Source of the DNA: an uncultured Bacteroidota bacterium
Lineage (GTDB): Bacteria; Bacteroidota; Bacteroidia; B-17B0; Aurantibacillaceae
Reading direction: 5' to 3'
Assembly: GCA_903893815.1 (NCBI GenBank)
Contig: CAITNS010000081.1
Location: 1 to 64,000 of the forward strand
DNA length: 64,000 nt
The notes under the pieces are model-generated. The model had not been told where the DNA came from. It did no database searches and saw only the letters and a list, made by a program, of their open reading frames with translations. The translations under genes and the position numbers were made by a program. Positions 60,931-64,000 of the stretch are shown in pieces; position 1 is the first letter of the stretch, and every line of letters begins with the position of its first letter.

Positions 60931-61530
60931 CTATATATAAATTTCAATATTTTTCTCTTCTAACATTTTCTTTAAGTTAATTAACGCATAACGCATTCTG
61001 CCTAAAGAGGTATTTATAGATACATTAGTTATTTCTGCAATTTCTTTAAAACTCATATCGTAATAGGTTCTCATAATTACCACTTCTTTTTGATCTTGAG
61101 GTAAATCATTTACAATAGAGCGAATAGATTCTTTAAAACGTTTGGTTTCTTCGGCATCTTTGCCATTATCTGTATTATCAGGAATAATATCAAAAATACT
61201 GGTCTCTTCTCCTTCATCATTAATGACTGTACTAATAGAAGGCATTTTTTTCACTTTACGGAAGTGATCAATAATTAAGTTTTTAGCAATGCGTAATATC
61301 CAAGGTAAAAATTTACCTTCTTCGTTATACTGTTGCTTTTTTAAAGTTTGAATCACTTTAAAAAATGTTTCCTGAAACACATCTTCAGTGAGCGCTTTAT
61401 TGCGCGTAATTAAATAGATGTATGAAAAAATACGGCGTTTGTGACGTTTTACAAGAATAGAAAGTGATTCTTCATTACCATTCATGTAAAGCTTAACTAG
61501 CTCATTATCTGAAAGAAGTTGCATAGACAT
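60931..61530 (-). CDS. ECF-type RNA polymerase sigma factor
   Basis: 199 residues. Region 2 is MNGNEESLSILVKRHKRRIF (about 13-32) with LITRNKALTEDVFQETFFKV (about 37-56), and region 4 is LPQDQKEVVIMRTYYDMSFK (about 144-163) and EIAEITNVSINTSLGRMRYA. The linker between them (about 90-130) is acidic and rich in Asp, Glu and Ser. No adjacent anti-sigma gene is visible on the same strand; the neighbour upstream (the histone-like fusion) is 146 bases away. The start is an ATG-TCT-ATG; the first or the second ATG could serve. Confidence 0.93.
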   Translation of the reverse strand: MSMQLLSDNELVKLYMNGNEESLSILVKRHKRRIFSYIYLITRNKALTEDVFQETFFKVIQTLKKQQYNEEGKFLPWILRIAKNLIIDHFRKVKKMPSISTVINDEGEETSIFDIIPDNTDNGKDAEETKRFKESIRSIVNDLPQDQKEVVIMRTYYDMSFKEIAEITNVSINTSLGRMRYALINLKKMLEEKNIEIYI

Positions 61531-61676: not shown

Positions 61677-62657
61677 TTAAAAGAATGAACCTAGTACGTG
61701 AAGCAATTTATCCACTTGGCTATGCCATAATAATCTTGCTGATTCTTCGTCTGCTTTATCGCTTGCAAAGTCTGTGATTATCAAAGAGATATCATTCGTT
61801 AACTCGTCTTTTTGAGTTTTAAATTCAAAATAACTACCGTCATTTTTATCTAACCATTGGTATCTGATAGAAATTGGCGGAATTTCTTTAATTAATTTTG
61901 CTTGTTGAATTTGTCCGTCCCAGTTAAACGTAAATACACCATCTCTGATGTTTACATCATCACAAAACCATTCTGACAATCCACTTTCGGTACTTACAAA
62001 TTCAAATACCATATCTTCTGAAGCTCTAATCACAAATTCCATTTCAAATTTACCTGCAGGTTCTTTTACAAACTTGGTAGGCACTTCATTTTCTGTTTTT
62101 CTGAAAGTGGTTGGGGCAACAATTGGTTTTTTAATCACAGATGCTTTTTCCTTTTTAACCTTAGCTGGTTTTTCGGCTTTTACAACTGGTGCTTTTACTA
62201 TTATTTCTTTAACTGGTTTAACAACAGCCACTTTAACAGAAGCTGCTTTTTTTACTGGTTTAACGGCCTTTTTAGGCGCTACCTTTTTTGCAACTGCTTT
62301 ATTAAAAACAGCTTTTTTAGCTGGCTTTATTACTTTTTTTGGAGCAACCTTTTTTACGACTTTTTTAACTACTGCCTTCTTAATCGCCTTTTTTGCGACA
62401 ACTTTTTTTACCGGCTTAGCAACTTTTTTGGGAGATACCTTTTTAACTAGCTTTTTTGCAACAGCTTTTATGGCAACAACTTTAGTCACGCCTTGGCGTG
62501 ACAACGACTTTTTAACTGGCTTAGTCTTAGCTATTGTTTTCACAACTTTTTTCTTAGCAACAGGTTTTTTTGCAACTACTTTCTTTACTGCTTTTTTGGT
62601 CACGCTAGGGCGTGATGCTTTTTTATTTTTTGACGAAGCTTTAGTTTTAGTCGACAT
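61677..62657 (-). CDS. Histone H1-like Lys/Ala-rich domain fused to START-like (SRPBCC) domain
   Basis: 326 residues. Residues 1-185 are Lys/Ala/Val/Pro-rich with about 14 units of the KKVAPKKAVKPVKKA type, resembling histone H1-like Hc1/AlgP tails that bind DNA. Residues about 190-326 form a START-like domain: KFEMEFVIRASEDMVFEFVS, TESGLSEWFCDDVNIRDGVF, TFNWDGQIQQAKLIKEIPPI, YFEFKTQKDELTNDISLIIT, DFASDKADEESARLLWHSQV; the end LLHVLGSF is typical. This domain in other Bacteroidota is a stand-alone protein of about 130 residues. Two in-frame palindromes (62485-62502, 62599-62616) interrupt the basic part. Transcribed divergently from mutL. Confidence 0.85.
   Translation of the reverse strand: MSTKTKASSKNKKASRPSVTKKAVKKVVAKKPVAKKKVVKTIAKTKPVKKSLSRQGVTKVVAIKAVAKKLVKKVSPKKVAKPVKKVVAKKAIKKAVVKKVVKKVAPKKVIKPAKKAVFNKAVAKKVAPKKAVKPVKKAASVKVAVVKPVKEIIVKAPVVKAEKPAKVKKEKASVIKKPIVAPTTFRKTENEVPTKFVKEPAGKFEMEFVIRASEDMVFEFVSTESGLSEWFCDDVNIRDGVFTFNWDGQIQQAKLIKEIPPISIRYQWLDKNDGSYFEFKTQKDELTNDISLIITDFASDKADEESARLLWHSQVDKLLHVLGSFF
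62485..62502. repeat. 18-bp perfect palindrome inside the histone-like gene
   Basis: GTCACGCCTTGGCGTGAC: 8-bp complementary arms around TT. On the minus strand it encodes SRQGVT, breaking the Lys/Ala pattern. Confidence 0.85.
62599..62616. repeat. Second in-frame copy of the 18-bp palindrome, degenerate
   Basis: GTCACGCTAGGGCGTGAT: the arms GTCACGC and GCGTGAT agree in all but the last base with the copy at 62485. On the minus strand it encodes SRPSVT. Confidence 0.8.
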
Positions 62658-62788: not shown

Positions 62789-64000
62789 ATGCAAAATGTC
62801 ATAACTCTTTTACCCGAAAGTGTAGCTAATCAAATAGCTGCCGGAGAGGTGGTTCAACGCCCCGCTTCCATTGTAAAAGAACTCCTAGAAAACGCTATTG
62901 ATGCTAAAGCTACTTTCATTAAATTGATTGTTAAAGATGCTGGTAAAACGCTAGTTCAAGTGATAGATAATGGTTTGGGCATGAATCCTGTGGATGCTCG
63001 AATGGCTTTTGAACGCCACGCTACCTCTAAAATTAAGAAAGCTGAAGATTTATTTCATTTACATACCAAAGGTTTTAGAGGCGAAGCTTTAGCTAGTATA
63101 GCGGCGGTGGCTCAAGTGGAGTTAAAAACAAAACGCGAAGAAGATATTGTAGGCCAATTAATTAAAATTGAAGGCAATAAGTTTATTAAACAAGAAGAAT
63201 GTCAGGCACCAACTGGCTCATCTTTTAGTGTAAAAAATCTATTTTTTAATATTCCAGCTCGTCGTAATTTTTTAAAAGACGATAATGTTGAGCTAAAACA
63301 TATTATTGATGAATTTGAGCGTGTGTGTTTACCTCATGCAAATATTCATTTTCAATTATACAGCAACGGAAACGAAATTTATAATTTACCGCCATCCACA
63401 TTAATTGAGAGAATCTCTGGCTTGTTTAGTAAATCGTTGCAAGGTAAATTGGTTCAAATAAACGAAGTAACGGATGTTGTAAAAATATCAGGTTATGTTG
63501 GAAAACCCGAGAGTGCAAAAAAACGCCGTGGCGACCAATACTTTTTTGTAAATGATCGCTTTGTAAAAAGTCCGTATTTACACCATTCTATTGCTGAGGC
63601 TTATCGTGAATTAATTTCGCACGACACGCATCCTGCTTATTATTTATTTTTAGAGGTAAATCCCGAAACGATTGATATCAATATTCATCCAACAAAAACA
63701 GAAATTAAGTTTCAGGATGAAAAAATAATTTATGCCTTATTACATAGTGCTGTTAAAAGAGCATTAGGGAAGGCGAACCTTGCTCCTAGTCTTGATTTTA
63801 GTAGTGAGATGAGTTTTGAGATTGATTATACAAAGGCAGTTTCTCAACCAACAGTTACTGTGAATCCTGATTACAATCCTTTTTCTACAAGCTCTTCTAA
63901 ATTCTCTTCTGGTGGTGGTTACAAACAACCTCCTGAAAGCGATTTGCAAAAACACAATAAACAAAACTGGGAAAGTTTATATCAAAACTATGCCGATGCA
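62789..64000 (+). CDS. mutL: DNA mismatch repair protein MutL (5' part, cut by the window end)
   Basis: 404 codons are visible and the frame stays open to the window end. Residues 1-330 are the GHKL ATPase and transducer: LPESVANQIAAGEVVQRPAS (about 8-27), ELLENAIDAKATFIKLIVKD (about 31-50, catalytic Glu and Asn), VIDNGLGMNPVDARMAFERH (about 62-81), HATSKIKKAEDLF and HTKGFRGEALASIAAVAQVE (about 92-111). The second half has RRGDQYFFVNDRFVKSPYLH (about 248-267) and NPETIDINIHPTKTEIKFQD (about 291-310). The end holds the variable, Ser/Gln-rich linker. It pairs with MutS, which is not in the window. Divergent from the histone-like gene. Confidence 0.97.
   Translation, partial: MQNVITLLPESVANQIAAGEVVQRPASIVKELLENAIDAKATFIKLIVKDAGKTLVQVIDNGLGMNPVDARMAFERHATSKIKKAEDLFHLHTKGFRGEALASIAAVAQVELKTKREEDIVGQLIKIEGNKFIKQEECQAPTGSSFSVKNLFFNIPARRNFLKDDNVELKHIIDEFERVCLPHANIHFQLYSNGNEIYNLPPSTLIERISGLFSKSLQGKLVQINEVTDVVKISGYVGKPESAKKRRGDQYFFVNDRFVKSPYLHHSIAEAYRELISHDTHPAYYLFLEVNPETIDINIHPTKTEIKFQDEKIIYALLHSAVKRALGKANLAPSLDFSSEMSFEIDYTKAVSQPTVTVNPDYNPFSTSSSKFSSGGGYKQPPESDLQKHNKQNWESLYQNYADA

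Follow-up and report, generated by a model that had tools for sequence, protein, structure and literature searches.

The window, that is, the whole 64,000-nucleotide stretch analysed here, carries on its minus strand a gene for a protein in which a long Lys-rich tail precedes a START_2 domain. The features of the locus are as follows.

61677..62657, minus strand: START_2 gene, 326-aa protein with an H1-like N-terminal tail and a START_2 domain (ORF, Pfam)
62061..62657, minus strand: polycationic tail, residues 1-199, disordered by model (composition, pLDDT, pS > pN)
61689..62051, minus strand: START_2 (PF19569) helix-grip domain, residues 203-323 (Pfam and model)
62100..62132, minus strand: linker motif KKPIVAPTTFR, residues 176-186 (read off the genus alignment)
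60931..61530, minus strand: ECF sigma factor, downstream and on the same strand as START_2 (Pfam, ORF)
62789..64000, plus strand: divergent neighbour that runs off the window, which we take to be mutL (ORF)
62486..62501, plus strand: palindrome TCACGCCTTGGCGTGA in the tail-coding part (sequence search)
62600..62615, plus strand: second palindrome TCACGCTAGGGCGTGA in the tail-coding part (sequence search)

Positions 61677-62657 of the minus strand form a single unbroken frame of 326 aa that starts with ATG, and Pfam places PF19569 on residues 203-323 at 119.4 bits (E = 1e-34, cut-off 23.6, model positions 6-125 of 126). An earlier reading of this DNA from its letters (the sequence-only reading) had proposed a one-frame fusion of a basic tail to a START-like domain, and the frame and the Pfam match bear this out. 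The tailed gene is present in one copy in its own genome, and the protein had no match in PADLOC and NCBIfam.

When the START_2 domain was modelled alone from an input of 89 sequences, the pLDDT reached 90.9. Its elements follow the order of a strand, two helices, six strands and a long helix, which corresponds to the helix-grip fold, where the long C-terminal helix lies on a curved sheet. Solved relatives by fold include 3q63 (Z 16.6, 2.3 Å over 123) and 2m89 (Z 16.0), and the structural neighbours of the model include PYL receptors, PR-10 proteins and aromatase/cyclases. The best solved sequence relative is 2lio (E = 1.5e-18; Foldseek E = 5.9e-9 against the model), an uncharacterised protein, BfR322 of Bacteroides fragilis, which belongs to the same START_2 family but is a chain of 136 residues, in contrast to the 326-aa tailed protein of the window. 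The next solved sequence relative is 2m89, named an Aha1 domain protein, with a weak phmmer match (E = 0.056). The START_2 domain may bind a lipid or another small ligand, or may make an Aha1-like protein contact.

The predicted fold, shared with the ligand-binding helix-grip proteins named above, and the H1-like composition of the tail would suit the suggestion of the sequence-only reading that chromosome compaction could be linked to a small-molecule signal: the protein would be a chromatin factor whose START-like domain, by binding a ligand, tunes the coating of DNA by the tail. We consider such a factor improbable: the nearest solved relative is uncharacterised and the next is named for Aha1, the linkage to mutL was seen in the genus only, and the same kind of tail is found on adenylate kinase (Adk), uroporphyrinogen-III synthase (HemD), RsfS and others, as described below.

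The tail (residues 1-199) consists of 33% Lys, 21% Val, 14% Ala and 8% Pro, and has a net charge of +63. It contains 22 KK pairs, many of which are spaced by 4-7 residues. In the full-length AlphaFold model, residues 1-202 have no secondary structure, with block means of pLDDT of 44-52 across residues 1-190, and the domain that follows is folded. In the length and predicted disorder of its tail, and in the tail's richness in Lys and in KK pairs, the window protein resembles the H1-like nucleoid proteins of the AlgP, PhaF, Hc1 and Hc2 type. The composition is similar to that of chlamydial Hc2 (PF07382), but the window tail has no Pfam match itself; residues 1-189 matched no family at E up to 1, and thus neither Hc2 nor any other H1-like profile. 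The earlier description of the tail as H1-like holds with regard to its Lys-rich composition and its predicted disorder. It had also been put at about 185 residues rich in Lys, Ala and Pro, of which the richness in Lys stands, whereas the length is 199 residues and the leading residues are Lys, Val and Ala, with Pro at 8%.

The fusion is common in the order of the source organism. START_2 is present in 61 of 65 genomes of this order, all of one family code, and 60 of the 62 matches lie within frames of at least 270 aa. The remaining two start at contig ends; one is in genome G072, and the other is one of two copies in G094, for which the contig end was read from the position of the match. At 52 of 53 own-family loci measured, the domain carries a tail of 136-277 aa with 24-39% Lys and a net charge of +37 to +72, and the only locus without a tail is that of G072, cut by the contig end. 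The linker KKPIVAPTTFR occurs in variant forms in 14 of 16 genus members, as read from the alignment. A frame artefact or frameshift fusion is ruled out by the long frames of 60 of the 62 matches together with the coding selection on the tail. Thus, the search for the same fusion in related genomes, which the sequence-only reading had suggested, was successful, and the two separate proteins that it had named as a refutation were not found in own-family relatives. The fusion is genuine and conserved.

The sequence-only reading had also named an internal start as a refutation, by which the START_2 domain would be made separately and the fusion would be only partly real as a protein. GTG or TTG codons lie 26 and 8 codons upstream of residue 200 in the window gene, and at 12 of 13 loci of family code f21 an ATG lies 18-23 codons upstream of the domain; because of this ATG, a shorter START_2 form is possible in f21. 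On the other hand, the first codon of the window gene is its only in-frame ATG up to the start of the domain, and among the 52 own-family tailed loci an ATG lies within 30 codons ahead of the domain at 5 and a GTG or TTG at 14. The own family therefore has no conserved internal start codon, and separate production of the domain is very unlikely there; the point keeps some force for f21.

In the class as a whole, START_2 was found in 354 of 396 genomes drawn. At least one tailed START_2 occurs in 14 of 41 family codes (f1, f4, f6, f7, f9, f16, f19, f21, f27, f28, f36, f42, f68 and f73), in a sample that is non-random, as it includes every family code showing a long frame among the matches listed. 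The other 27 codes have only bare START_2, most starting a few residues ahead of the domain; START_2 can thus perform its core function without a tail. Tailed and bare forms are both present in f28 and f68, and each of the 38 named Flavobacteriaceae-side loci has the bare form. The view of the sequence-only reading that the domain normally stands alone does not hold for this part of the class: the own family has the fusion as a rule, and 13 further family codes have it too. With tails in 14 of 41 codes, sampled with a preference for long frames, the combination can hardly be called unusual. Neither a tailed START_2 nor a comparable set of tails in Bacteroidota appeared among the matches listed from the open-licence PMC literature.

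A tree of the START_2 domain was built on 123 rows, of which 52 are tailed and 71 bare. A branch with an SH-aLRT of 96 separates off a group made up of 43 tailed rows, and the remaining nine are dispersed over the tree. Parsimony requires a minimum of 7 changes of tail gain or loss, 2 of which are forced by well-supported branches; the tree was built on few columns and 64 of its 118 forks are open, which leaves the number of separate gains unsure.

In the comparison of the window gene with 15 genus members, pS of the tail exceeded pN in 15 of 15 pairs (pN 0.16-0.42, pS 0.50-0.78), where the alignment of the repeats is uncertain and dS is close to saturation. This indicates that the tail is translated and constrained, with a constraint weaker than that on the START_2 domain. 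The order of the repeats and the length of the tail differ among close relatives in the genus alignment. The net charge per residue is 0.267 ± 0.049 over 83 extensions of at least 45 aa from 14 family codes. In the single genome with a GC-rich locus (66% GC), the tail contains 14% Arg and 13% Lys, so that Arg provides half of the positive charge, and the charge density of 0.26 is the same as elsewhere. The conserved property of the tail is its charge and not its sequence.

These data also bear on whether the tail has much function at all, since Lys-rich repeats could expand by slippage and be tolerated. The variable order and length of the repeats among close relatives, the coming and going of tails on the tree with at least 7 changes by parsimony, and the differing sets of tailed proteins among relatives would all be expected of such repeats. 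However, pN stayed lower than pS in all 15 pairs, the charge density stays constant even through the Arg-for-Lys swap of the GC-rich genome, and every uncut own-family locus measured is tailed (52 of 52), and we regard a tail of little function as unlikely.

The adjacency of mutL had been taken as relevant in the sequence-only reading. MutL adjoins START_2 at 15 of 16 genus loci and at none of the coded own-family loci outside the genus, most of which were seen with about 1.5 kb of flank. The ECF sigma gene lies downstream of START_2 at 16 of 16 genus loci and at the single locus of genus g6, and a sigma gene is also present at one f53 locus. At the named loci, mutL and ECF sigma occur at 12 and 13 of 17, respectively, most of which repeat own-genus genomes. 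As the adjacency is found in the genus only, the link to mutL was rejected as a functional clue.

Three other layouts were recognised, with neighbours identified by Pfam on representatives. In the first, START_2 precedes LptF/LptG (37 loci, 11 family codes); in the second, a PAP2 phosphatase (30 loci) and a PMT_2-type mannosyltransferase (21 loci) lie downstream; and in the third, found in f52 and at the named Flavobacteriaceae-side loci, the neighbours are aminotransferase IV, an AlgH-like protein, HU and Fmt. Since no layout spans the range of the domain, no function is drawn from the neighbourhood.

Similar tails are present on other proteins of the same genome. They were sought with the tail as the query, which gave four weak protein hits, and with the pattern KK[AV]x[AV]KK, which gave 31 hits compared to 5 for the reversed control; the list obtained from this one DNA pattern and the four weak hits is incomplete. 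According to Pfam, Adk and topoisomerase I (TopA) carry C-terminal tails, and HemD and RsfS carry N-terminal tails. A DksA/TraR-type zinc-finger protein has an N-terminal tail, the ribosomal proteins L21 and Thx have short C-terminal tails, and a NUMOD4/HNH protein and a DUF5606 protein are also tailed; the tails of L21, Thx and the latter two are shorter than that of START_2. The tail of Adk matched HC2 (PF07382) weakly, at 24.2 bits, below the curated cut-off of 40. Over 20 genomes of the own genus, the pattern averages 25.6 hits per genome compared to 4.6 for the control. In other genera, it is not above the control in G022 (3 compared to 10) and G028 (7 compared to 14), which have tailed START_2, yet it is high in G046 (24 compared to 1), which has bare START_2. 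In this lineage, the tail resembles a general-purpose addition and is not specific to START_2.

Several further hits in this genome are recorded for themselves. In the DksA/TraR-type protein (L225:487-1689, contig C30), a Lys/Pro/Ala tail is followed by a very acidic stretch and then the zinc finger. A single frame at L242:991-2352 (contig C45) joins an HhH-GPD domain, presumably endonuclease III-like, through a Lys-rich stretch to an AhpC-TSA/Redoxin domain, presumably a Bcp-like peroxiredoxin; the second part may in truth begin at a MATKK inside this frame. At L230:1447-1620 (contig C43), a free peptide of 58 aa consists after its Met of just Ala, Lys, Val, Pro and two Thr, with 43% Lys, and has no Pfam match. 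The single pattern hits L228 (short, with a signal-like start), L232 (a frame we take to be dihydroorotase-like) and L248 are ordinary Lys pairs and were excluded from the list of tails, and no frame was obtained for the hit L226.

The tails of Adk and HemD were followed in 20 stretches from relatives, chosen for long frames. Adk has a C-terminal tail in 7 of 7 own-family genomes checked and also in f21 and f6, and a Lys tail was absent from the f8 and f9 stretches checked. HemD has an N-terminal tail in 6 of 6 own-family genomes checked (the weakest with a K+R of 0.21), and none was found in the f9 and f20 stretches checked. In G041 of f6 (L298), a basic tail of 90 aa is placed at the C-terminus of HemD, in contrast to the N-terminus in the own family. 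Adk frames reach at least 300 aa in 33 of the 36 own-family genomes with a match, where Lys content was checked in the examined stretches only; of the exceptions, G001 is cut by a contig end, and G021 and G030, both of genus g3 within the own family, have short frames of 195-199 aa. The Adk of G021 was verified as bare, and START_2 and HemD are tailed in the same genome. HemD frames reach at least 330 aa in 35 of 36 own-family genomes with a match, and that of G019 is split over two contig pieces.

Frame length alone was rejected as evidence of a tail on Adk or HemD, as the Adk extension of G043 is non-basic and the long Adk and HemD frames of G044 lack a Lys tail that begins with ATG. The Adk frame of G043 (L310, f8) is 519 aa long with a C-terminal extension of 331 aa that is not Lys-rich, and represents an Adk fusion of a different kind. 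Which proteins are tailed varies between relatives, and the set is not fixed. The switching of the tail between proteins, and even between ends, indicates a modular add-on. Since tails of this kind occur on several unrelated housekeeping proteins of the genome, the tail is probably a general anchor rather than a special chromatin sensor.

Comparable arrangements are known in other bacteria. PhaF and AlgP of Pseudomonas resemble the window protein in combining a non-H1 domain with a Lys-rich tail, theirs being of Lys/Ala/Pro. The window tail differs in lying at the opposite end and in being rich in Val instead of KPAA repeats, and its folded partner is a helix-grip domain in place of a phasin or AlgP N-domain. 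HupB/MDP1 and TopA of actinobacteria are likewise housekeeping proteins with a Lys-rich tail, with the difference that their folded partners themselves act on DNA. START_2, Adk and HemD have no known action of their own on DNA.

As to the tails themselves, the literature states that AlgP binds DNA and that PhaF is believed to link granules to the chromosome (PMC9239181, PMC13052382), that the Lys-rich tail of HupB is required for association with the nucleoid (PMC5676037), and that the Lys-rich C-terminal tail of actinobacterial TopA confers processivity (PMC7398561). Since the tails of AlgP, PhaF and HupB bind DNA or the nucleoid and that of TopA raises processivity, the tail of the window protein is taken as an electrostatic tether. 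By this analogy, we infer polyanion binding and tethering, and a modular polycationic tether with the nucleoid as its first target is, with somewhat better than even confidence, the best explanation. A conserved, single-copy, AHSA1/SRPBCC-like START_2 protein of Bacteroidia has acquired a long, disordered, polycationic tail in this lineage, and this tail, acting as a non-specific electrostatic tether, would keep the folded domain attached to a polyanion. The polyanion would be the nucleoid in the first place, with RNA, ribosomes and polyphosphate as alternatives. The tail is a modular decoration, and the own job of the START_2 domain need not change. Adk and HemD, which do not obviously require DNA, speak against a tether to DNA. 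The bare START_2 of 27 family codes, the unfixed set of tailed proteins and the pattern counts of G022, G028 and G046 also weigh against the modular tether.

Among the alternative targets, the tail may bind rRNA, ribosomes or mRNA instead of DNA, in which case the tailed set would be ribosome-associated. Tails are found in the same genome on L21, Thx, RsfS and the DksA/TraR-type protein, and because L21, Thx and RsfS are ribosomal, RNA is as natural a target for them as DNA. However, TopA is tailed too, the tails of L21 and Thx are short, and the better-studied bacterial tails of like composition act on the nucleoid. An RNA or ribosome target is the main rival and a possibility to be taken seriously, if on the whole unlikely. 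A tail that holds START_2, and perhaps the enzymes, on polyphosphate or the nucleoid, in the manner of AlgP and PhaF with polyP or PHA granules, would have its model in AlgP, whose H1-like tail is required for the spacing of the polyP granules on which the protein is located (PMC9239181). The present data contain no connection between START_2 and granules, and we hold this analogy to be decidedly unlikely to apply.

The modular tether with the nucleoid as first target can be extended, quite tentatively, to a "tail code" in an order of Bacteroidia. Interchangeable H1-like tails might gather START_2, Adk, HemD, TopA, RsfS, L21 and others on a nucleoid or nucleic-acid condensate, which would tie the activity of START_2, along with the metabolism of energy and haem, to the chromosome or ribosomes. 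The interesting part of the locus lies in the set of tailed proteins, beyond the single START_2 fusion. If the tails are true tethers, one uncultured lineage offers several natural H1-like anchor fusions on proteins without a known DNA role, and the tailed and bare forms of Adk, HemD and START_2 make the function of a bacterial tail directly testable. An H1-like tail on one protein also calls for caution against reading a special chromatin function into that protein.

A separate observation concerns the DNA of the tail-coding part. The segments 62486-62501 and 62600-62615 are near-identical palindromes TCACGCCNNGGCGTGA that encode SR[PQ][SG]VT, where the chance expectation in the window is 0.03 at up to 2 mismatches. 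At up to 1 mismatch, 8 such sites occur in the genome compared to 0 for the reversed control, and several of the other genomic sites look intergenic by eye.
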